Assembly: GCA_022925895.1 (NCBI GenBank)
Contig: JAKSYS010000048.1
Span: forward strand, 99,099-163,098
DNA length: 64,000 bases
From: Fragilaria crotonensis
Lineage: Eukaryota > Bacillariophyta > Fragilariophyceae > Fragilariales > Fragilariaceae
Reading direction: 5' to 3'
The position numbers were made by a program, and so were the translations under genes. Numbering within the stretch: the stretch's first letter is position 1; the number at the start of each line of letters is the position of its first letter. Positions 7,701 through 64,000 of this stretch are shown piece by piece. The notes below the pieces were generated by a model. The model was not told the DNA's origin. It saw only the letters and a list, made by a program, of their open reading frames with translations, and ran no database searches.

Positions 7701-8866
7701 TGCTCTAGGGCCCCGTCCATAATCATTGTGTTGGGGACACCTTCTCTCTGGAATAGGAGCGACAGCCCCTCGTGGGCTTCAGACTTCAGCTTCATCGGGT
7801 AGGCCCGGCACCAACCATCCGCAGTCGCGAAGATCTGGGCGTACGAATTATTGCGCCTCGAAGCCGTCTTCGATATAAGAGTGTCAGTAAAACACTCAAT
7901 GGGTAATCGCCTGTATCGAAGCTGGCGATCGTTCGTCCGAAACCTTCGAGACAGGGTCGGGTGTAGGACAGTCCGGATCCCGCGTTGTGTCGTCGTGCTC
8001 ACAGTCCGTCGGGCCGTGGCCTTGTCAATACCCCAGTTGCGGGCGAGCATATCAGGGTCGAATTGGTTACCGACTGAATTACGCTTCAATACGCTAATCA
8101 TTCGGCTCAATTCAAGAGATAGTGAACGGTCGTCAAACGTAGACGATGTTGCAGCAAGAGACAATAAAGCGGCATCGTTTCCAGTGCCAATAGAAAGTGC
8201 ATGCGAAAATGTCTTGGTCACGGAGCATAGGCGTCGAGACGGAGGCGACGCTCCAATCCGGTCCCCTGTGGCCAATATCATTTTTGTGAGTGCGTCCTCT
8301 TGCGTGGCATACGAGGTGTCATGTGGGTCGTATTCCGGTTCGTCGCTCGTCAAGGTGAAATGCGGAAGCGACTCGTACTCTTCCGGTGTTGGCTTTCGTG
8401 TGGGAAAGGACGAGGTAACACCGTGAAGGGAAAGCGGAATGACGTATGGTTTATTCGGATTGTTTGTTGGAATTGCAATTGAGTGAGTCAAGTCAGTCAA
8501 GTTGTCAGTGAGAAAGCGAGGCGTGTCACTTATCGTCACGTCATTCAGACGGACTTGCATTGTCGAAAGCAAATTGTGTTCCAACTCTGGCACCAAGATT
8601 GCTTGATGAACAAGCAAGATGATAGTTTCGCCAGTATACGGGTCGTTGTAAGCCAGTGCCGCCGACACCTGGCGCAAGTTGTTGGTAATCGGTCCGCTAG
8701 GGTGAAAGCCAGACACGTTTATGGGTCGATCATAATCGTGGACTACTAATGCATTACGGCCCACAGCACATTGATCCGCGTGAGAATCCAAGTCGGTCCG
8801 AGATTCATTCGCGACGGACACGTCGATTGACCCGAGTACCCTCACAGCAGCAACAACGGACAAATG
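4733..8866 (-). CDS. pol: copia Pol polyprotein (PR-IN-RT-RH), in frame with gag across a TGA
   Basis: About 1,376 codons in the same frame as gag. After the gag TGA (8869-8867) the frame reads His-Leu-Ser-Val and has no ATG near its beginning, so it is most likely translated as a gag-pol fusion by readthrough. Domains by rough residue: aspartic protease with DSHAD (26-30); integrase around 300-430 with its Asp residues and the NAAE glutamate; reverse transcriptase around 860-1040 with YVDDILV near 1008; RNase H from about 1220 (FVDSDHAG, GAEFVA, GDNMSV) to the end. The order IN before RT places it in Ty1/copia. No internal stop or frameshift is present. Confidence 0.95.
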   Translation of the reverse strand, partial: HLSVVAAVRVLGSIDVSVANESRTDLDSHADQCAVGRNALVVHDYDRPINVSGFHPSGPITNNLRQVSAALAYNDPYTGETIILLVHQAILVPELEHNLLSTMQVRLNDVTISDTPRFLTDNLTDLTHSIAIPTNNPNKPYVIPLSLHGVTSSFPTRKPTPEEYESLPHFTLTSDEPEYDPHDTSYATQEDALTKMILATGDRIGASPPSRRLCSVTKTFSHALSIGTGNDAALLSLAATSSTFDDRSLSLELSRMISVLKRNSVGNQFDPDMLARNWGIDKATARRTVSTTTQRGIRTVLHPTLSRRFRTNDRQLRYRRLPIECFTDTLISKTASRRNNSYAQIFATADGWCRAYPMKLKSEAHEGLSLLFQREGVPNTMIMDGALEQVKGMFRKKCREAGVHVKQTEPHSPWSNAAEAAIRELKKGVGRQMVRSGAPKRLWDDCLEREAYVRSMTAHDIYKLGGQVPETIVSGETADISPFALFAWYDWVMFRDTSVSYPDDAMVLGRDLGPAIDIGPAMTRKVLKENGKVVYRSTVRSLTDDELADETMSHKRREFTNKVNLILGEGFKYEDFINDPELEHLGTPIYPSYDDDVDGESTQFADADDEPEPDPDTYDQYVGASVTLPIGDSMMSGKVRGRKRSLDGNVIGKANKNPILDTRTYEVEFADGQYAEVSANIIAQNMYAMCDSEGNQYLLLAGIVGHRKDDSALDRADMHIKHGSNQQLKKTTRGWKLCVEWKDGSTSWERLADLKESNPVELADYAVTQGIDTEPAFAWWVPYTLKRRNRIIAAVNNRYHRRSHKFGIEIPKTWDDCVRLDKENGNTMWQDAVRKEMSKVRVAFQLINDDESPPLTFQEIRCHLVFDVKMENFQRKARLVAGGHMTETPASITYASVVSRESVRIALTLAALNDLEVKTADIENAYLTAPVGEKIWCRLGPEFGNDAGKKALIVRALYGLKSAGASFRNHLADCMRHLGWQSCIADPDVWLKPEIRPSDGHKYYAYCLLYVDDILVVHHDSTKSLKEIDHFFKTKDGSIGEPDFYLGAKLRITTLPNGVNAWSMSSSKYIQAAVANVKEFHKQHFPNYQWAKRTSGPFPINYAPELDTTPELDAGQAAFYQSQVGVLRWCVELGRVDIITEVSELASYMVLPRQGHLEAIFHLFNYLEKKHNARIVFDPSYATVDMSAFKECDWRAFYGDVREAIPPNSPPPRGKDVDLRMFVDSDHAGDKRTRRSRTGFLIYLNMSPINWFSKKQATIETSVFGAEFVAMKQGMEALRGIRYKLRMMGVELSGPSYIYGDNMSVIHNTQRPESILKKKSNAVCYHAIREAVAMGECLTGHVSTNENPADICTKIIPGGQKRDHLVGLILYDIADHN

Positions 8867-10369
8867 TCACTTCTTGGGATCTGCAATCTTGGCTCTCTTC
8901 TGGCGAGTGAGCGAGGGGTTGTTACGATTTCCACCGCTACCACACTTGCCGTCGCATTCGTCAGTCGACGCGACCGAGTTCGTTGAGTCAGCCGTCTCGT
9001 CGTCAACACCGGCCTTGCTCATCTGCTTGGCAAGCTGAGCTACCTGACGATTAACGACCTTTCTGATATTGTTGATTACGTCTTTCTTCGAACCTCCTTT
9101 CGATTTGTTGACCACCTTGCTATCCTTTTCGCCGGGTTTGTGGCCGCGCTTCAAGCGTTTCGAGGCGAGATCCTTTTTCTGCTCGGAAGTCAAAGCGGAG
9201 TATTCCTCCTTGGTGTAGTACCTATCCTCGACCTGGTCAATCTTACGTTTGCCAGTCTTCAACTCTGAGATGTTGACGGTATTCGCGGCCGTTTTAGACT
9301 TCGAAGCCTGACGAATATAATCTTGGTATAACGTTACACAAGCATCGAAGTCGTTTCGAAGACGTTCCTCAGACATAATCCGAGTTTTAACCGCATCAAA
9401 CTTGTCGGTTTTGATGCCGTCGAGTAAGTACCGGACCTTCGAACGAGGGTCAATACCCGCATATCCGTGTTCGACAAGACCCTCCAACACGGAGTGTTGT
9501 TGCTTGTGGACGTTTACGTAGCGCTCGAAATCCCAACGACGCTGCTCACCATTGTAAACAGTCGACTTGAGCTTGTCCTCGGCCGTCGTGGCCATGTTGT
9601 CGACGTTGTTGGGGCCGAGAAAGTGAGTAAAGAGGTGCTGATATGCAGCTCGTCCATCACGATGCCTCTGTGCAGGGCGTACATACGTCCAGGAATCCTT
9701 CTCACGGGTGATCGATGCAATGATCTCCCACACCTTTTCTCGGTTGACGAGGTAGACAGGGTCGGGGACCCTCGCTCCACCAGGGCTAAGCGAGTAATGA
9801 GGTGCCCTTGCAATCATTTCATCCTGCTTGGTCGGGTAGGATGTTGGAGGGTCCTCGCCCTGGGGAATGTCTTCATTCTTACGAACGACGTAGGCCAACG
9901 GAATCTTACGTTCTCCAAGTATGGAACGAAGGTACTCTTCGATAGATTCCATAGTCTTTGGCCAATCTTTCGGATTAATCGTAGGCAAGTCACCCGTTGG
10001 ATGCTTATATGTGGACTCAAACTCTCGCAGTTCGCGAACGGTCCGGATCACGGGGAGGGTTATGTCAGGTGCCTGAACGGCACGACTGACCCGTTCCTGA
10101 TGACGCAGGTAGAATGCGAGGAGCTTCAAGTGTCCCTCGGCGCGCATGTTCACCTGAACTCCTGGCGCTGGAATAGGAGCGCCACCTGCGGGATTCGGAA
10201 CGGTTCCGCCAGGTCGGCGAATAACCTTGCAGAGGCTTTCGACCTCTTCGTCGCTCAAAAGTTTAATCTCCTCGAGGTCACTCATACCCTGTTCCTCAAC
10301 TAGGGCCTGAGAAGCGCTCTCAGAGAAACCGATGCGGGTGAAGACCCCGCGCATAACAGCGTTGTTCAT
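8867..10369 (-). CDS. gag: copia Gag polyprotein
   Basis: 500 aa from the ATG at 10369. It forms the virus-like particle that packages element RNA. The N-terminal third is acidic and contains a Pro/Gly/Ala linker. The middle is helical and matches the general capsid layout. The C-terminal part is highly basic (KRGHKPGEKDSKVVNKSKGG). I see no canonical CCHC zinc knuckle, only a Cys pair in CDGKCGSGG, so nucleic-acid binding probably rests on the basic tail. It ends KK-TGA and the pol frame continues directly after the stop. Confidence 0.9.
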   Translation of the reverse strand: MNNAVMRGVFTRIGFSESASQALVEEQGMSDLEEIKLLSDEEVESLCKVIRRPGGTVPNPAGGAPIPAPGVQVNMRAEGHLKLLAFYLRHQERVSRAVQAPDITLPVIRTVRELREFESTYKHPTGDLPTINPKDWPKTMESIEEYLRSILGERKIPLAYVVRKNEDIPQGEDPPTSYPTKQDEMIARAPHYSLSPGGARVPDPVYLVNREKVWEIIASITREKDSWTYVRPAQRHRDGRAAYQHLFTHFLGPNNVDNMATTAEDKLKSTVYNGEQRRWDFERYVNVHKQQHSVLEGLVEHGYAGIDPRSKVRYLLDGIKTDKFDAVKTRIMSEERLRNDFDACVTLYQDYIRQASKSKTAANTVNISELKTGKRKIDQVEDRYYTKEEYSALTSEQKKDLASKRLKRGHKPGEKDSKVVNKSKGGSKKDVINNIRKVVNRQVAQLAKQMSKAGVDDETADSTNSVASTDECDGKCGSGGNRNNPSLTRQKRAKIADPKK

Positions 10370-52607: not shown

Positions 52608-55600
52608 CAGGGATTGGAAGTAAATAACCACCGGTACAGGTTTTCTGTTCTAAAATCCGGGCGCACGTCCCAGTATTAATTCTACGCTAGACCGATTTCA
52701 CTGCCAATATGACGTCACGAGGGCGGGACTTTGTCGTGTTGGAAGCAAGGCTTCCACAATGAGATTTTCAAGCCGTCGTTTGCAACATTTCTATTCTAAT
52801 CTATAGATTTACCTCCTGCAGTCACCTTCCTATGTAACTCAGTGAACCTACTGTTGGTGATAAATCTATAGATACAATGGTTGACAAAGGTAAATATGCT
52901 ATTTTGACTGATGCCGTCATGCTACTTCGAACAGACATCACGTATGGTCCGAGATTGTCAAATTGCTGGCTTCCTGCATCAACTTGGGCTGAAGCTTTAG
53001 GAGATTTGATGTCAATGCGTCCTTGGCGTCATTGATGTAAGAAGGTTCAATACAGGGATGTCCAAGTCGGCTTTTTTCGGAGAATTGATGCACCGATTTG
53101 ATGGATCAAACACAACAGGAGTGTTCAGAGTCACATACAAGAACACATTCTATTACTACTTCACAGAGAAATCAAGGCAGATACGGTACCCATGTCCACT
53201 TAACAGTGCATGGAACGAAAAAGTAATGGAAGCAGCCGCAAATGTGCTAGTCATTCCAAGCACAAGATCAAGACCCGCTCTCGACACAATGATAACTACA
53301 CCTGTCAACACGGAGGCTACAACGGGAGGAAGGATCGAGACATTGTTGAGCAATCACCGAGCAAACGAGCAAGGATAGGAGATACTGGTGCGGCCGCTGT
53401 AATGATTGCTGCTGATGCTTCTAGCTCAAGTTACTGGCCATGTAGCCCAGAGGCATACCGAGTGTTCAAACCACCAAAGAAACATGGGACAACGAATTGC
53501 GAGGATGGGAATGATACTGATTTCGATTCTGAAACTCCAATGGAAGCACTTCAGAGAAGGATTGTACTGCTTCAAAGCGTTCATGAGGAAGAAAATAATT
53601 GGAGGAATGTTGTGCAAGGTAGAGATATCGACAACGTGTGTACCAAAGCTGAGATATGCGCTGTCAGGCAAAGGGCGACGTTTCTTTGTTATGCGTACCG
53701 ATTGGCTCTTGCAAAATGAATGAATGGACGTGGCAAGACTGTTGCACTGAATCTTGTAAGGTATTGAACACTGTTGGTATGACGCAAGCAACCTTCTATA
53801 AAACCATCGCAAATTGGAACATTGTGTTCCGTAATTTTGAATGCTTCCCAAACCCAAACTTGTCTGTTCAGTGTGGAAACGACCTCTTCCTCGAGTTCTC
53901 GAAGTGTTTCCATGCGCAAAGGAGCAGATTGTTGCATTTGGCGTCGAGAACTTGTCACATCTTTCAATTGAAGCAGTCTATCAATTCGTTCATTCGTCTG
54001 TAATCCCAAGGCTGGCTGCGTTGTGGAAACGTGAATCGGGTAGACGAAGATACTGCAGAAACGTCAACATTGAGTACAAGTACTACAGCCATTAATCCTA
54101 CTAGCAATCCTGTCGATGTCGATCAAGATGAGGATGATATTGCGCTATTCCTTCGCGCACATAGACTTAAAAACATGAGCTTCACAACAGCATGGCGCTG
54201 GATGCGATTACTCGGATTCAAGTATGATACGAGAAGGAAGAGCTTCTACGTCGATGGCCATGAACGTGAAGATGTTGTCGCACATCGAAATGCATTCTGC
54301 AAGAACTACCTTACCGTGCTTGAGCCACGTTGTCGGCGTTGGATTCAGCTTCCACTCAGTGAAGCTGCTACGATCAAGACCTTAGACACAGATTTCGGAC
54401 ATCATTACTATGATATTATATCTGATGAGACTCGGGTTGAGTTTCACGTTGACTATTGGAAGAATTGCATATCAAGAATCAAAAGGGGAGAAGAGGCAGC
54501 GCGAGATGTTGAAGCAAAAACAAGCATACGAGTGTCATCATCAGTCAGGCCCTTGATGATTATTGGTCAAGATGAGTCTGTCTTCGCGCAGTATCTACTG
54601 TCCTCCAAACAATGGGTTGGGCCAAAGGACAAGTGCCACTTCTGCCCAAGTCGGAGGGCGATGGGTATATGCTTTCTGCGTTCGTGTCACGCGAATTCGG
54701 CTTTGGCAGGCAGATGACAGAGGATGAGTTACAAAGAGTGAATATGGCAAGGCAAACAGCAGCTCGGCGGTGGAAATTACCTCGATACAACAGCTGCGAT
54801 GGAAATCTTGGGAACAACGAGGAAGCCGATTTTGTTGGAATCCCCTTCGTAAAATACTTGTTCATCGGAATCAATAATCAGGGTTATTGGAATTCATACC
54901 ACATGAGTCTTCAGCTTGAGGATGTGGTTGATTGCCTACGAATCCTATATCCAAGCTTCGATTTTGTATTTTTGTTCGATCATTCTCAGGACACGCTCGC
55001 AAACGTGATGGTGCACTCAGTGCGATCAACATGCAAAAGAACTTTGGAGGATCAAAACAGCAGATGAGAGACACAGTCATAATGTCACAAGAGGGTTATC
55101 TGGGCACACACTCACCAACCCTGGGCATCGGAGACACAGTCAATGGTATTCAATACTGACGACTGTGGCCCATGGTATTTGACACCAGAGCAACGTGACT
55201 TACAACGTCATGATCGAATAATGGGGAAAAGAAGCAAGCCAATTGAAAAACAAAGAAGACCCTTCTTGAAGAGCTCAACGAAAAGGGTGTGACGCTCCAA
55301 CAAAAACGCGGTACACTAAAGCCGAACTTCAGGAATTGGCAAGAAACAATTCAATCGAAACTCACAAAGAAGTCGACAAAATCCTATCTGGATGGGAAGG
55401 AAAATCTAAAGGCATGCTACAAGTTCTGTGGGAAAGAGGACTGATTGATCCAAGTGAGTTAGATAAATACACTGTCGACGGAAAGAAAGACACAATTTCA
55501 GGGAAGATTGACTTACGGTATTCCCTACGCCATCTCATCGCAGAGTGTGCTGATTTCAAGGATGAGAAACGGCACTTCAGTACCTTGGATCTCAGCTGGG

Positions 55601-56647
55601 CATCACGGTACTAACACCAAAGTTCCATGCCGAATTAGCAGGGAAGGCATTGAATTTTGCTGGGGTCACGCAAAGGCTTTCTACCGACGGGTTCCTGTAT
55701 CTCAAAAAGAGGGGACGAGAGAATTTCAAACAACTTGTGAGAGATTCAACGTGTTCAATCAAGGAGTTGACCAAAGAAAGGATGGGAAAGTTTGCTTCGA
55801 GAGCACGCGCATATATTTGTACTTACCATCATCTTTTGAGAGTCAGCAGAGAATGAGGCAGCAAGGTCGTACCCACAACTTCATCGCCACAAGTATAACA
55901 GAAGATCAAGGACTTCTGTACTCGAAATCCAACGCCTGATGAAATTGTTCAAGTCTCACAGGTGTGCATTGGACTTCGATCGTGGCTTCGTCAACAGTGC
56001 ACTCAAAGAAGCAAAGACAAGAAACGAGGAGGACGAGGTGTGATCATCATGTCGACAGAGATGGATTTTTATGGTCGCAGGAGACAGCTGCTACTAAAAC
56101 TTGATAAAGGATATGGAAATAATATGCGTGCATGGTACGAATTGTACACAACCTACGTTCGGACGCTTCAACGAAAACTGTACCGGTAACCAAATACCGA
56201 TGGTATTATACTGTACCACTACTGTGATTTTTAAAATGCCCAATAACTGGTTACCTGCGAGTTGCAATATACCAACCAGTAACCAAGACCCTTGGTTATT
56301 TTCTACTGAGTTTAGTCGGTAGTATTTTGAATTCCGGTGTTCGGGAATACCAGTCGGAATTTCCATAAATGTTCTGTCCTGCATCAGTGTGTTTACGGTT
56401 CATTTCTGTACTGTAGTACTGAAGTTTACTGTTACTGTAGTGTTTTACACCATTATACCTACCGACGAAACCAATGGAACCGAGTAAGTACTGCGATTCG
56501 AAAATGACTAGAAGTTATATTCATACCGGACTGAAGGATTTTTCAATACCAAAATACCTCCCAGTGCAACAGCACAATACCATTCTACCTACTGGAGGAC
56601 TGTAATACCAGATTCAACGTGGGACAGTATTATTTTTCCAATCCCTG
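52608..56647. mobile_element. DDE transposon with hAT-like ends and 8-bp duplication
   Basis: A 4,040-bp element. Terminal repeats CAGGGATTGGAA match at both ends in inverted orientation. A perfect 8-bp duplication ACCTCCAC flanks it (52600-52607 and 56648-56655). It contains one decayed transposase on the plus strand. The right 450 bp are full of AATACC/GGTATT-type subterminal repeats. Confidence 0.88.
52877..56045 (+). pseudogene. Decayed DDE transposase
   Basis: At least eight overlapping plus-strand frames form one protein broken by frameshifts and stops. In order: an N-terminal exon from the ATG at 52877; a helical DNA-binding-like region; SFTTAWRWMRLLGF with YVDGHEREDVVAHRN; the first catalytic block LMIIGQDESVFAQYLLSSKQWVG; ISAF-like LSAFVSREFGFG; GYWNSYHMSLQLEDVVDCL; the second Asp in FVFLFDHSQ; MQKNFGGSKQQMRDT; FHAELAGEGIEFCWGHAKAFYRR with the candidate catalytic Glu; and ARAYICTYHHL. 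This block order is one I recognise from a widespread, poorly named DDE family in fungi and algae. It is not functional here. Confidence 0.8.
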
Positions 56648-57545
56648 ACCTCCACCCCACGTCGAAAGTGTGAATTAAGCGCATAGTCATGACTTCAGAC
56701 ATACTCGGAGTACATTATTCCATATGGCTAGCACAATATACCGGTATATTGTTTCTCAAGTCACGACCCGCAATCGATGACATTTTGAGCTCGAAGTCTA
56801 CTGGTAGATACATACGAAATAGGAAGGCCGGATGCCGCATGTGCGCATGTGCTTTCTTGTTTAAACGACGCTAGTGAAAGAGAAAATCCGACTTGGAGTA
56901 TCCCAATTTGCCGATTCGGGAATGAAATAATGGAATCGCAAAACGACAAGACGCGTTTCCGTCCTGTGGTGCGATAAATGTTCATGACAAAATTGGATGC
57001 TAATCTGTTAGACTCAATCCTCGATCATCAGGAAGCCCATATCTGTGGTTTGGACATAAATCTGTGGTCATGCACCAAGAAAATATGTATTGACCGCATA
57101 TATCTAACAAAATTTATTCGATTTGAAAATCACTTAGGTTTGTTTAGGTATGTTAACATGATATCTTTGTTTTGTACATGGTTATATTTACAAAGGTCTT
57201 TTTATACTTATTTGTATCTATGATAGAAATACTTTCACAACAATATCCTATTACTGTATGATTCCTCGGAAAGTTTACATACTATCCACTCTTTTGGTCA
57301 GATGTTATGTATCTTCTACATCCTTTCCGCACGTTCGTAAGCTTGACGGACGTGCTTCCCTTTTTTCATCGGTTGTTGTTCATGCTTTTCGTGTATCTCC
57401 TACTAGTATGATACAATCTTCGCGCCATATTTTCCAACAGAAGGCTTAATTTCATTTGTGGTGTAAACCATCTTACTGACTTGGCATCATCACCAGCCAC
57501 CACTGCCATTAGTAAGCAAGACGTGGAAGTTGATCAGTTTTCATA
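56648..57545. other. Stretch between two DNA transposons
   Basis: About 900 bp, AT-rich. It begins with the 8-bp target duplication of the left element and probably contains the 5' end of the Plavaka element, whose terminal repeat I could not locate. No gene seen. Confidence 0.4.
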
Positions 57546-60482
57546 ATGGCACCAAGCAGCACATCATCAGCATCTCAAAGTGGAGCCTTCACATGTTTCA
57601 ATGTCAACTGCTATGCTACGTTCAAAACCGAACGAGGTCTTCGTCAACATTTATGGCGAAGTGCTCCATGTCGCGATTATATGTCGGAACCAAGGCCTCT
57701 TGCTGCTAGCCTTGACGTAGTTCATGAGAGTACATGGTCCCGGCGCTTGGGATACGGCGTTGAATCTTCACGTCTAAATCCTTTTATGAGTGCAGATCCT
57801 CCATCGTATGAGCCTTACGAAGTTTTTGACTACTCGGCAACTTGTAATTTTGACACAGATGATGGCATTCATGAACAGGAGGTTGAAATGAACCAGAACT
57901 TGTCTACAAGAACAGGCATCGGTGACATTGCTATATCTTGCCCAGTTTTTCATGCCATGATGGAACGCCTTCAAGCGGGTGATCGCCATGCAATCATGGT
58001 ATTGCATCATGATGTTGAACATCGAAATATTGTGAATCTCCTCAAGCTTTTGGAGGATGCCCAATGTCCTGACTACATGTTGCAGAAGGTACTGCAATGG
58101 GCATACAATGCTAAGTTAGAGGGCTTTGATTTCAACCCAAAAGCTACAACACGGAAAGCCAACATCCAGTGGATGTACAAAGCTTTGGAACACTCACACA
58201 GAGGACTTCCTAAGGTACTGACAGCGAATCTTGAAGATCACGACAAGGCTCAAGATATTATTTGCTTTGACTTTGTACCTGCATTATTGTCAATGCTGCA
58301 AGACGAGTCATTGATGGTGATGGAAAATCTTGTCATCAATAAGGAGTATCCAATGTCAATGTACATACCAACTGACAGCAAAGTTGGCGAGGCAAACAGT
58401 GGTTCACGTTATCGAGAATTGTACCAACAACTTGCACAAGGAAGGATCAGCTGCTTGTACCAATTATAATGTACCTTGATGGCACCGTCATTGACAGCAA
58501 GGGGCATATTGATATCTGTCCTGTGTCATTCACAACATCTCTTTTCACTGAGAAAGTTCGTCGTGACGTAAGCATGGCGTCTGCTGGGCTATGTTCCAGA
58601 CCTGAACTGGGCGCTCTGCAGCAATGAATAGCTTTGCAAATGCATGTGCTGAAGAGAAAGGTCGCACTACTCGTAATTTCCATAAGGTCATGGATGATGA
58701 TGGCAGGTTGGGTGAAGTGTCAAGCTGGTTTAGATGATCGTTTAAAACACGTACCACTGAAACTTGGTGACAGGTGGTTTGTTGTCGAACTTGTTTGCCC
58801 CCTGTTATTTGTCATCAACGATGGCAAACAAGGTGACCAACTTTGTTGCCGAATCAATGGCCATCACAGCAGTACATTGCGTCACCATCGTCATGTGATT
58901 GCTTGTATGAAGATCTAGATAATCCTGATGTTGAGTGCACATTCCTATCGACTGAGACAATCAACTACGCATCTCAACATGGCTCACAAGAGGAGCTCCG
59001 CCAGCTTTCAATTTACAGATGTGACAATGCCTTCAATCGTGTTCAGATGGGGCAAAACCCCACGGCATCTTCATGTGTGCAGTTATTGATGTGATGCATA
59101 CAATTCAACATGGCATCATCATGTATGTTCTCGATTGCTTCAAAAAGCCTCAGTGTTCAGTCACTGGCGACGCTTGACAAAATGGCTTTTATATTTGACA
59201 CAACGTGCAGAGTATTCGCACCTCTTTCCCCAGAACTGATTTTTCCAGAGGAATAACAAACCTCACCATGGTGGAATGCTCTGAACAGTCGGGGCGTTGT
59301 TCCTCATTTCTTTCTTCATTATGCAAGCGGAAGGTTGGGAAGTCTTCGATGAGCATTTTCTTCAATTGGATGCCGTGTTGGGGACTATGGAAAGCCTTTT
59401 ATGCTTTGAGGCCTGGCTTGATCAGTACACCTTTGGGATATTGGAGATCCAGACGGAGAGGCATCACAAGCTGAAGCAGCAATTGCTTCTCTGATGAATC
59501 TCATCACCACACATCTTCCGAGACACGCTGGCAATGGATGGAAACTGTCAAAATTTCACGAGATCAAGCACATCGTACGATTTATTGCTGCGTTTGGAGC
59601 ACCGCGTGGTTACAATGCCTCCCGTCCTGAGGAACATCACAAGGCACACGCCAAACGTCCTGGTAGACGCACAGAAGAATGTGACACCATTGACCAGCAG
59701 TGTGGCCAAAGAATTGCGGACGCACTCGTGATTGATACTATGCACGCGATGTTCCAAGAACGACCTGTTTTGAAGACATCATCACAGCATACTAACCGTA
59801 GTCAATTACTGGCTGCTGACGATGTCCAAGATCCTCTGACGAGTGAGTCAGGGTCTGGAACGTCATATTACGTAAGGTCACACATTGACCCTATGGATGA
59901 TAATCGATTGTGTCGATGTAATCTTTGACACTCAGACCAGGGAGACATCGAACTGGAAGATAATCTTGCACTGTTCATTTTGCAGACTTACAGTGACTGA
60001 TCTCGACGACAATGGGGTGGGCGGTATCTGGTGCCGCACAGAGTACCATAAGTACAACATTGAAACAAAGGAGGAGATGGTTTCTGTTCGCTGTCATCCC
60101 AACTTCAGGGAAAGGGGTATTCCTGGTATGATTGGGCTCTCATCCGCTATGAAGATGATGAGGAAATGAGATGGAGTACCCATCTCGCATTGTGAGTTGC
60201 ATACCACGCCACAGTTGCTTTGGTGGAATTGAAACCACCACGCTTGACCTCATTATTCAATGTGGCAAACCAACTGGGCGTGAGTCCTTCCTGTTCACTG
60301 AGTGGACATTCGAGAAGGAGTTTCATGTTGTCTCCTCAGAAGCCATTGTTGGCTTGTGTTTTGTCCTAAGCAACCCTGACCTCGCTGACTCTGATGTCCT
60401 TGTTGTAACAGATAGGGACAAATGGGCATCAATGTTCTACGATTCAGCAATGGTTGATTACACCATCAATGGTCAAAATTAA
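57546..60482 (+). pseudogene. Plavaka-type (CACTA-related) transposase, decayed
   Basis: The first frame (307 aa, ATG at 57546) opens with a C2H2 zinc finger (CFNVNCYATFKTERGLRQHL..SAPC) and reaches FVPALLSMLQDESLMVMENLV and GEANSGSRYRELYQQ. After frameshifts the sequence continues: LDGTVIDSKGHIDICPVSFTTS, RWFVVELVCPLLFVINDGKQGDQLCCR, a FLSTETINYA region, DNAFNRVQMGQNP, IDVMHTIQHGIIMYVLD, and a C-terminal segment with WKLSKFHEIKHI and EEHHKAHAKRPGRR. A last part reads EMEYPSRIVSCIPRHS. These are the hallmarks of Plavaka transposases. At least six indels and several stops make it inactive. Confidence 0.8.
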
Positions 60483-60494
60483 GTAGAAACAATA

Positions 60495-63002
60495 TTAAAC
60501 CATCGGTAACTGGGACATTCCATACATGATGATCCGTGTCTTTGGGGCAAAGAACGTACCATAGATATTTCCACTCCGCGAACCTGTCATGGATGTACCA
60601 TGCCTGATCAGGCGGCCATCCCATCCAATCAGGACACCATCAGACAATTTGATGGCAATTCCGTAGTCCCGATCCGATCCTGGGAATTTCCCTTCATGTT
60701 CGGAAGGACAAAGTACCAATCCTCAGTTGTCCCAGGGTGATCTTCAGTCCAGATCGTAAACCCCTGACTGGCATCGTTCACATCGTAATGTGTTGAATTT
60801 GCCAAATTAATTGACAAGTCCATGCTGTGCGTAACGCGGCATGCCTCCGTCCATGCCACCAACATGCTTCATTTCAGAATCATTTTCCAAGTCCTGCATC
60901 ACTCTGAGGGCAGCCGGGATAGTCACTGATGCAAGCTTTGCCGCAGCTTGCACAGCCTTCAACAATACCGGGGCAGCATCCACAGTTGATGATGTCACAT
61001 ACGGCACCTTGTTCCAGCATTTTGTGATGCGGCTTCCAATTGATGCATTGATCCGAGGTCTCCATTGCCAGCCCTTGCTCCCGTGCTGCTCTCTTCTGTT
61101 TTCTCACCAAGTTGCAATGCCTGTTGATGTCGGTCAGAAGGTCCTCACAACCTGATCCAACAACGTTTGGGAGGTACCGGATTTGAACCACAGAACACCG
61201 ATGGAAAGCAACTTCGCCCGCATTTGCGGGTACAGTGACATCAACGCAGCAAGTCAAGCTCACCATATTTGATTGGATTGATAACAAATGTCGTTAACGG
61301 GTCAATGGTCTTGTGCAGAAATCCCGGTGCATAATGGCGACCTCCACGTTTATTGACCTTGATCGCGAGAACGCATCTTGGAATGTCTCAGCTCGAAACT
61401 TTTGATCAGCACTCAACAACTCATCCTTCTCACCCACAACATAGTCAGGAGGAAGTCCAGGTCCTTCCTCATCCATCAGTTGCTTTGCAGTGAATAGATC
61501 TCACAAGTGATCTTGGCATCACCCCATGATCGCATTGGGAATTGGCAAGAGGTTTGTGGCGAGCGCCGAATAGTCCACTCCAAATGGAACACTTATCAGC
61601 ATTCGCAAGGTGTGAAACATAAGATCCATCACCGAAGAAGTTACCATGAGAATCATGCTGAAGTCGTAACCAGTTTATGTCCATTGGGACATGCGAATTA
61701 AGGACCCCAGTCGATCGTGAGCGCCTCTCCTGTGGCAATAGAATATGCCAGCTTGGGGAAGGAGGACAATGCATGCACGGTAGAAGTTATCGCTGTTATT
61801 CTTCCTGAAGGGCGAGAAGAAAAAGCATTTCATCTCTAACAGCGATTGCCAAATTGACAGCATCAACATCATCAAATAGACAGACATGCACGGGACTGTC
61901 ACAGGCATGGGCGTCATCTTTCCTTTCCTTTCAAATCCATAGGACCACTCGAGAGAACACAATCCATGACAATCAGGTCGAGATCGGAATGACTTTCCCC
62001 ATGACTATACATTTCATCAGGATGTTTGCAGCGCTTGAGCATGACATACTCAGTACCAAACACATGTTTCAGGGACGAGTCAACCCACTGATGGGAGTCT
62101 TGCAAATCTTCTCGTCACAAAATGCCGATGGACCTAGAGCGACGCCGCCACAACTGCAGGTGGTATTGAACAGACGCGGCGTTGCCCTTCTTCCGCTTTT
62201 GCTTCTTCCGTTTTTGGAGAGGAGGTGGTCGAAAATTGTTGAACATGACCATGAAAGGAGCAACAGACTGCAAAGGCAGACACTTGGCTACATCTTGCAA
62301 CTTGAGTGTGACTTGCCATAGAAAGTGATGGATGCTCTGAAGCAATCCAATCTCCAAACCTTTGTTTCTTTGATTATCTTCCTGCAGCCTTGACTTCTTT
62401 CCTCGTCTCTCCTGTCCCTGATGAAAATTGCTGCCGACAGCAGCATCAGCTTCTGTGGTACCGCCAAGTGTGGCAATAGGCACAGACATGGTGTTTTCCG
62501 TCAACGGAATGGTCTGTCGATTGTTCACTCTTGCCAAAATAATGGCACGGGAGAGCTCACCTGGCAGAGTGCGTTGAAATGGTCCATGAGGGCGAGCACG
62601 AATTGGGCGTTCACGCCAATTGTTTTCTGCCTTCCCACTCTTTTTTTCTTCTGCTGTGGTTTGGTGCTTTGGGATGAAGATGGCAACGTGGTCACAGCAT
62701 CATCAACAGCACTAGTCGATGAACCAGCCTCTTCAATCCACCACTCACATTTGCCATCAAGACAGCCTTAGTAGACACAACCTTCAACTCAATCTTCACT
62801 TTAACTTTGAGCTCAACCATCAGATCCTTGTCCTTCCTCAACGAATCAGACCTTCTTGCCAAAGTAGAGGTCTTTCCCTTCTTGAATAGCCGAACATGGT
62901 AGCAGTTTTGAGAAAACTCCGCCTCGTCTTCCGACGATGAATCCTCAAACCATTCCTTTGTCAACGTCGAACATGAAGTCGTTGAGCACAAAGTCTCTGC
63001 CA
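60495..63002 (-). pseudogene. Broken second gene of the Plavaka element with a dioxygenase-like C-terminus
   Basis: Convergent with the transposase (13 bp between ends). The upstream part, from the ATG at 63002, is acidic then basic (SSSEDEAEF; KPQQKKKRVGRQKTIGVNAQFVLALMDHFN in another frame). The middle is heavily shifted. The C-terminal part reads NLANSTHYDVNDASQGFTIWTED, DWYFVLPNM, then in the next frame GIAIKLSDGVLIGWDGRLIRHGTS and YGTFFAPKTRI. An H-x-D motif followed about 60 residues later by a His in a double-stranded beta-helix-like pattern is the signature of Fe(II)/2-oxoglutarate dioxygenases. TET/JBP-like members accompany some DNA transposons in fungi. At least five frameshifts inactivate this copy. 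Confidence 0.55.
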
Positions 63003-63059
63003 TCATAGACAACTGGAGCCAATCAAAGTGAATGGGCCTCACAAAATTTGTCGTCAACG

Positions 63060-63690
63060 GTGGAGCAAGGAAGCCAACAGCGAGCAACACGCGAACACGA
63101 CCGGTCGTTGTCGTAACCAACAGCCAGCCAGGAACAACCAAATCGACGTCAGCTGAGCTTTATAGATGTAAACGCAAAGCTGAACGCGAAATTGAAGCCA
63201 GCAATGGCGTGGATCCAGACAATGACAGTCTCGCAATATCTGTTATCAGTGGCGGAGCGACGAGAATTCTGCAACGTGACAGCCAACGAAGAACAAATAT
63301 GCAACGACCTGTCGTCGTCGTTGTCACCAACAGCCAGCCGTGAACAACCAAATTGACGTCAGCTGAGCTTTATAGATGTAAACGCAAAGCTGAACGCGAA
63401 ATTGAAGCCAGCAATCGGCGTGGACCAAGACAATGACAGTCTCGCAATATCTGTTATCAGTGGCGGAGCGATGAGAAACCTGCAACGTCGTGACAGCCAA
63501 CAATGAACAAATATGCAACGACCTGTCGTCGCCGTTGTCACCAACAGCCAGCCGTGAACAACCAAATCGACGTCAGCTGAGCTTTATAGATGTAAACGCA
63601 AAGCTGAACGCAAAATTGGAAGCCAGTGACCGGTGTGGATCAAGACAACGACAGTGTTGCAAAATCTGTTGCTCGATGGTGGAGCTTCCA
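63060..63690. repeat. Three tandem copies of a ~210-bp unit
   Basis: The block CGTCAGCTGAGCTTTATAGATG recurs at about 63148, 63358 and 63572 (spacing 210 and 214), inside copies that also share CAACAGCCAGCC, CAATGACAGTCTCGC and CAACGACCTGTCGTCG. Copies are about 90% alike by eye. Their position just upstream of the minus-strand gene suggests a subterminal or promoter array of the Plavaka element. Confidence 0.88.
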
Positions 63691-63720
63691 AAACATCAAT
63701 GCGATAATGAAAGGCAATGA

Positions 63721-64000
63721 GTGTGACAAGGTTGTCAGTCAGCGCCTAACAGTGAGTGTGTTGTAGTTGAGAAAATTTGACAAAAAGAGACAACCGAATC
63801 GCCCAATACATTCGTTGTAGAAAACATACCAAAACTTGTGCATCACGTTGCGAGCAGGAATGCATACAAAGCTTCACTATGCTAAGCATAATTGCAATTT
63901 GAACATATAAGTACACTAATATTTACTGATATGATTCACATGTAGAATGTGACAGTACTTTCGTGCTTGTTTTTTATTGAGAAAATTTGTCCATCCTGCG
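63721..64000. other. Right edge of the window
   Basis: 280 bp, AT-rich, no gene. The right terminus of the Plavaka element may lie here or beyond the window. Confidence 0.4.

Follow-up and report, generated by a model that had tools for sequence, protein, structure and literature searches.

A predicted TET/JBP-like iron enzyme encoded beside Plavaka-type and MULE-like transposases in a probable diatom genome

DNA transposons that carry TET/JBP-like genes are already known: the sections of Kojima 2025 (PMC12730594) cited here and below describe fungal Plavaka elements (PlavakaB) and other TET+ transposons of this kind. According to these sections, the PlavakaB termini are 5'-CATCA..TGATG-3', several transposase superfamilies carry related TET genes, and the PE type was recognised as similar to known TET through structure-based comparison. 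We describe a comparable arrangement in a DNA stretch of 64,000 nucleotides (the window), which is the terminal part of contig C438 in an assembly of 62.1 Mb in 881 contigs. The window contains a Plavaka-type transposon with a transposase gene on the plus strand and, convergent with it on the minus strand, a second gene, hereafter the partner gene. In all four respects, i.e., a TET/JBP-like gene in a DNA transposon, the termini, the variety of transposases and the detection by structure, the elements here resemble the fungal ones. However, the fungal Plavaka PE-type enzyme is HxE, whereas the partner enzyme is HxD; the TET+ Plavaka host of that source is a fungus, whereas the host here is very probably a diatom; and one of the carriers here is MULE-like, a type absent from the 11 carrier lineages given in the sections cited.

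We consider it likely that the partner is a TET/JBP-like non-haem iron enzyme, resident as cargo in diatom cut-and-paste transposons, which most likely modifies 5-methylcytosine (5mC) on element DNA and counters silencing. The computed basis consists of a conserved iron triad with a cytosine-reading Asp position, a predicted double-stranded beta-helix (DSBH) close to TET/JBP, signs of purifying selection and the convergent position of the gene beside two kinds of transposase; from these we infer action on DNA, the 5mC substrate, the anti-silencing effect and the cofactor, which would be 2-oxoglutarate (2OG) or ascorbate. New here are the HxD enzyme, the probable diatom host, the sharing of the gene with MULE-like elements and the fact that the Pfam and PDB sequence searches made had missed it. 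The original prediction had seen a Plavaka-linked enzyme in an alga as a separate case of a transposon carrying a modifying enzyme. The probable diatom host agrees with this, but Plavaka elements with TET/JBP genes had already been described in fungi (PMC12730594). Our literature search turned up no account of such a gene in diatom transposons, although published work may exist.

The partner gene spans positions 60495..63159 of the minus strand, the upper bound being taken from the frame of the C659 copy, and it is frame-broken in the window. Residues are numbered by the C30 protein. The HxDxxD motif (STHYDVNDASQGFTIWTED) lies at 60740..60796 on the minus strand, with H524 at 60788-60790, D526 at 60782-60784 and D529 at 60773-60775. 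On the same strand follow the WDGRxxRH.TS motif with the distal His (GIAIKLSDGVLIGWDGRLIRHGTS) at 60591..60662, in which H588 occupies 60600-60602, the last predicted strand, YGTFFAPK, with K608 at 60540..60569, and the protein end MSQLPMV at 60498-60518. The HxD and distal-His pieces of the original prediction are thus confirmed. They occupy different frames in the window, indicating that the earlier reading had joined two frames by eye; in the near-identical C30 and C659 copies, both are read through in one frame. The open frame of C30 covers 622 amino acids (aa) of the C-terminal part, with the N-terminal part in another frame, and that of C659 covers 898 aa from stop to stop.

Searching the same genome with the partner protein gave at least 84 matches at 63 loci, including the window's own; this is a lower bound, since 71 of 413 candidates were scored. 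We first aligned 15 open frames and then 21 rows, comprising those 15 and six C-terminal pieces. Ten such pieces were considered, of which L046, L047, L048 and L049 were omitted as repeats of used rows; the omitted pieces also carry HxD and the distal His. Identity to the C30 partner was 29 to 71% across the aligned homologues. The iron-triad residues H524, D526 and H588, the H/D/H set on which the original prediction had rested, were identical in 21/21. The same was true of D529, of S516 at His-8, and of W581-R584, R587 and T590, and position 537 was W in 19 rows and F in two. F604 was found in all 19 rows with letters at that position. K608 was K in 18 and R in one of 19 such rows, and it was invariant in a 14-row alignment without L022, a row that is out of frame after H588 and was retained in the larger alignment.

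Among 11 pairs compared between subfamilies, the ratio of nonsynonymous to synonymous substitution rates (dN/dS; Nei-Gojobori) was 0.07-0.19 for the C-terminal domain (six pairs with unsaturated dS) and 0.13-0.24 for the whole protein (seven pairs); the pairs have rows in common, and their dS values are high. The partner protein looks to be under purifying selection, that is, selected to work. We also considered a TET-like accessory protein of transposition that binds DNA but has no catalytic activity, because the gene adjoins the transposase within the element and the enzyme activity of the partner is a prediction. With all three metal ligands invariant and the domain strongly constrained, such a protein appears very improbable.

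The broken frames of the window copy were compared with three other copies. Relative to C30, C659 and C487, the window copy has 52, 63 and 54 places with missing bases, together with 38, 60 and 31 substitutions, respectively; of the single-base gaps, 31/39, 32/48 and 32/47 fall inside one-base runs. Among themselves, the three copies differ by 19-40 gaps and 22-79 substitutions. The idea that the window gene has decayed was weakened, as gaps rival or exceed substitutions and the single-base gaps lie mostly in base runs, as in an uncorrected long-read assembly. Since contig C438 also terminates at the window end (64000), the broken frames may be largely assembly error at the contig end rather than decay. 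Over window positions 57026-64000, we observed 60-74 gaps and 31-60 substitutions per pair, gaps being the more numerous.

To describe the fold, two AlphaFold2 models were built. Model 1 was based on 21 rows (predicted TM-score (pTM) 0.81, mean predicted local distance difference test score (pLDDT) 75) and model 2, of a member 34% identical to the first, on 20 rows (pTM 0.84, mean 77). Over the C-terminal 260 residues of model 1, ten-residue pLDDT means lay mainly between 75 and 95 but fell to 58-59 at 421-430 and at 521-530, the latter being the HxD loop. Both predicted models contain a DSBH, and the leading PDB matches were DSBH enzymes. In Foldseek, the first 19 rows for model 1 were CcTET, TET2 and CMD1 (E 2.8e-9 to 7.8e-7), and the first five rows for model 2 were TET2 (from E 4.4e-7), followed by FTO. 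The TM-scores were modest, at 0.21-0.54 (target-normalised) for the TET/JBP rows of model 1, with a root-mean-square deviation of 5 to 11 Å. In the VIA comparison, model 1 scored 18.0 with TET2 (285 residues, 4.5 Å), 15.9 with CMD1 (276, 4.8 Å), 15.0 with CcTET (257, 3.9 Å) and 15.0 with NgTET1 (238, 3.6 Å), while ALKBH3 (11.7) and FTO (11.2) fell below all TET/JBP structures. Model 2 gave 17.9 with TET2 (298, 4.6 Å), 14.8 with NgTET1, 14.6 with CcTET and 14.3 with CMD1, against 10.8 with ALKBH3 and 10.4 with FTO. TET2, NgTET1 and CcTET, which share the iron triad with the partner, were the best structural matches, and by these predicted models the partner domain is closer to TET/JBP than to AlkB/FTO.

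These results bear on two other types of enzyme. AlkB, ALKBH3 and FTO are DSBH nucleic-acid dioxygenases, like the predicted fold of the partner, and they form the next structural group; in addition, CcTET, a TET, also acts on N6-methyladenine (6mA) according to PMC12730594. The partner might accordingly demethylate N-methylated bases (6mA, N6-methyladenosine (m6A) or 1-methyladenine (1mA)) in DNA or RNA, which we regard as improbable; these structures gave a lower Z and shorter coverage. An iron enzyme that hydroxylates not nucleic acid but a protein (the transposase or a histone) was considered very improbable, as the closest structures are DNA-base enzymes and the His+5 Asp matches the base-reading position in 21/21 rows. 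The original prediction of a 2OG dioxygenase core was sustained for the modelled DSBH, with TET/JBP as the best PDB matches, and for the iron triad, so that neither of the two refuting conditions given with it, a predicted structure lacking the DSBH or H/D/H residues not conserved in homologues, applied. 2OG is one of two candidate cofactors, and the site has a possibly CMD1-like feature.

CMD1 of Chlamydomonas (PMC7854593) is one of the closest known systems: it has the TET/JBP-type DSBH predicted for the partner, the same HxDxxD spacing and a Trp at His+13, where by spacing most partner rows also have Trp. Identity between the two was 12-15% in structural alignments, and the partner, unlike CMD1, is transposon-borne. 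The iron ligands of CMD1 are H345, D347 and H397, and N4 of 5mC is bound by CMD1 D350, TET2 N1387 and NgTET1 D234 (PMC7854593). D350 is His+5 in CMD1, and the solved TET2 chain reads HRDLHN, with N at His+5. D234 of NgTET1 presumably corresponds to His+5 as well. The partner has Asp at this position, D529, in every row, matched to the base-reading position by spacing, where TET2 has Asn; both have HxT past the distal His. T590 had been entertained as a mark of CMD1 and was dropped, because the solved TET2 chain has the same HxT.

The cofactor pocket was examined in the same manner. The C5-carboxylate of 2OG is bound by R1896 in TET2 and by R289 in NgTET1, whereas CMD1 is without a working 2OG Arg; its W358 (His+13) fills the place of this arginine and contacts vitamin C (PMC7854593). 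R1896 lies 15 residues past the distal His and six before the stacking Tyr Y1902 (solved TET2 chain with the numbering of PMC7854593), and it has no evident counterpart in the partner, which has no sequence-level match to TET2. If F604 is the stacking aromatic, the place of R1896 is column 598, which is G, N, C, K or S, the register being set by spacing. At His+13, the TET2 chain has V and the partner family W or F. Because of this W or F and because column 598 is not conserved as basic, the pocket may be CMD1-like, judging from residue positions; K608 might provide a basic anchor of a different type.

We therefore weighed a CMD1-like enzyme that would use ascorbate instead of 2OG and turn cytosine of transposon DNA into a hypermodified form, for instance 5-glyceryl-methylcytosine. 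Position 537 (W in all but two of the 21 rows, which have F) resembles CMD1 W358 where TET2 has V, the invariant S516 matches CMD1 T337 at His-8, and the R1896 place is without a conserved basic residue, F604 being taken as the base-stacking aromatic. However, the residue correspondence rests on spacing, HxT after the distal His is common to TET2 and hence unspecific, counterparts of CMD1 R244 and H249 were not identified, CMD1 is not the closest structure for either model, and K608 is basic. On balance, this reading is possible but doubtful, and a TET/JBP-like enzyme acting on 5mC, with its cofactor left as either 2OG or ascorbate, is preferred.

The plus-strand gene convergent with the partner (57546..60482) is frame-broken in the window, and 993 aa are open in the C30 copy. 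The C30 transposase showed 35% identity over query residues 167-979 to the frame C5:57079-59442, which itself matches PF18759 (Plavaka) at E 1.3e-11, above the cut-off; PF18759 had 80 matches in the genome. Searched directly at E up to 1, the window-type transposase (two copies) gave no Plavaka Pfam match and the C30 transposase no Pfam match at all; the L011 transposase gave a chance-level match only. Going by this sequence similarity, the gene is a putative transposase distantly related to Plavaka. The transposase of the C659 copy is broken, and among the inspected copies of the window subfamily, none had the transposase and the partner both fully open.

Linkage was then counted over the 63 partner loci. 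A window-type transposase or PF18759 match was convergent within 6 kb of 20 loci (a PF18759 match at C109, C341, C502 and C529), stood in another orientation near one, and was near none of the other 42. At seven of those 42 loci, a MULE/SWIM-like protein was convergent to the partner; all three such proteins scanned matched PF10551 (E 5e-4 to 3e-3) and PF04434 (SWIM; E 6e-3 to 0.03), all under the Pfam cut-offs. A convergent transposase was thus found at 27/63 loci, as opposed to about 0.4 expected by a hand estimate if the 139 listed transposase loci were evenly placed; the candidates scored were 46 of 589 for the window type and 52 of 96 for the MULE-like protein. In the 20 loci L009-L028, hidden Markov model (HMM) comparison found a Plavaka-type frame on the convergent side of 15/20, some of them weak (E up to 5e-4), and none at five; six of the HMM-positive loci (C466, C183:5789, C265, C124, C609 and C285) are additional to the 27. 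The Plavaka linkage of the original prediction was borne out by convergent Plavaka-type transposases and Plavaka-type ends, but it is not exclusive, as MULE-like transposases adjoin the partner too.

In a tree of 21 partners (eight rows without a transposase label, root arbitrary), the MULE label needs two changes, both forced by supported branches: three MULE partners are sister to the window type and one lies in a far clade. A cargo gene of Plavaka only was rejected, since the MULE-like neighbours belong to partners in two separate clades. In C137, identity to the window type is 66% for the transposase and only 39% for the partner. Because the label changes twice and the two identities in C137 disagree, the partner gene seems, by sequence comparison, to pass between transposon lineages. 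TET genes of fungi likewise pass between transposon lineages (PMC12730594).

Several points weigh against a TET/JBP-like enzyme carried by transposons. The HxD loop has low confidence in both models (527-530 in model 1; 466-474 in model 2, where it contains H, D and D and has pLDDT under 50); placement of D529 in the models is unreliable for this reason. The two models share alignment rows from one genome and are not independent. None of CMD1, CcTET and NgTET1 was in the best 50 Foldseek rows for model 2, identity to TET2 is about 10%, and the canonical 2OG-binding Arg was not located in the partner alignment. The Pfam scan of 15 partner members at E up to 10 returned only four single-member chance-level matches, and the PDB sequence profile search gave no credible match. 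At 36/63 partner loci, the listed searches, two of which (out of three) scored part of their candidates, gave no convergent transposase. In further searches, the Pfam Tet_JBP profile (PF12851) was not listed for any of the 15 members at E up to 10; it had 0 matches in the genome, but no control genome gave any either; and a search of viral and other genome contigs with the 15-row alignment, at two short peptide patterns per scan, found no relative.

We postulated how a TET/JBP-like enzyme would serve the element. The partner would bind double-stranded DNA, flip out 5mC and oxidise or otherwise modify the methyl group of this base within the element itself; host cytosine methylation would then no longer keep the element silent, because the 5mC would be oxidised or capped. 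In the diatom Phaeodactylum, depleted methylation and overexpression of young transposons are correlated with the loss of DNMT5a (PMC9998398). A bolder version, in which two unrelated transposon superfamilies of diatoms exchange a CMD1-like ascorbate enzyme that hypermodifies their own methylated cytosine, so that a private mark blocks silencing and labels element DNA, appears rather unlikely. With the TET/JBP-like reading, these data suggest that transposons have captured DNA-modifying enzymes more widely than annotation shows, and that such genes escape notice because sequence profiles fail to recognise them. The diatom case also makes it possible to test directly, in a major algal group, whether host cytosine methylation is erased or rewritten by a mobile element, and the partner enzyme might yield a new DNA base or a new enzyme for use in methylation sequencing.

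The Plavaka-type transposon occupies 57026..64000 on the plus strand, from its left end to the contig end. Its left end, CATCAGGAAGCCC, forms a sharp homology edge in four copies with unrelated flanks, and the right end, ...GGGCTTCCTGATG, was seen in the C487 and C30 copies; termini of the Plavaka type, CATCA..TGATG, are thus present at the left end of four copies and the right end of two. The right end (...TGATG) is absent from the window, as the contig stops first. The 26-nt left terminal inverted repeat lies at 57026..57051 (plus strand), and the C30 left end is 92% complementary to the C487 right end. The C487 copy, with both ends present, measures 9,663 bp. The exact 23-base left end occurred at eight places in the genome versus 0 in a backward-read control, and all eight contigs carry the convergent transposase and partner of the window family; in C117, the left end is about 7 kb away from the transposase match. 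The flanks were AT/AT in C487 and unmatched in C30, so that a putative target-site duplication, for which 2 or 3 bp would be expected, is seen in one of two copies.

Three 130-nt repeats with spacings of 210 and 214 nt lie 5' of the partner gene at 63065..63618, and they occur in other copies too. Longer arrays with offsets of about 150 nt were observed in the L020-L022 subfamily, the window type having three at about 210 nt. These tandem repeats could be promoter or transposase-binding arrays. A third plus-strand gene was observed near the right end, outside the window (L028/L041; C487 element positions 7732-9372), with two open frames, one of 239 aa and one of 260 aa; the 260-aa frame gave no credible Pfam match. 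The partners of L016, L022, L031 and L032 have several hundred extra residues C-terminal of the enzyme domain, among them a short stretch rich in Cys that is conserved.

In profile searches of the genome, the light-harvesting family PF00504 was matched 61 times and the silicon transporter family PF03842 19 times (best E 4e-193). By these sequence matches, the host is a photosynthetic eukaryotic alga, and, as both families are present, by far likeliest a diatom, in agreement with the algal host of the original prediction. Silicon transporters are known in a few non-diatom groups too. Consecutive silicon-transporter matches within one open frame, an arrangement known from fused transporters, were observed at C97:29749-33762 (1456 aa frame, three matches) and C771:21664-24330 (1008 aa, two). 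The genome also contains C5-methyltransferase domains (13 matches to PF00145, several of which are likely fragments of a single gene). Two of these frames, C826:11753-12919 and C541:2533-3699, of 479 and 493 aa, have an equal match span and near-equal scores and perhaps represent a duplicated or mobile methyltransferase. To the left of the Plavaka copy, window positions 53000-56200 hold more broken plus-strand frames (e.g., 54004-54717), which give the impression of another degraded mobile element.
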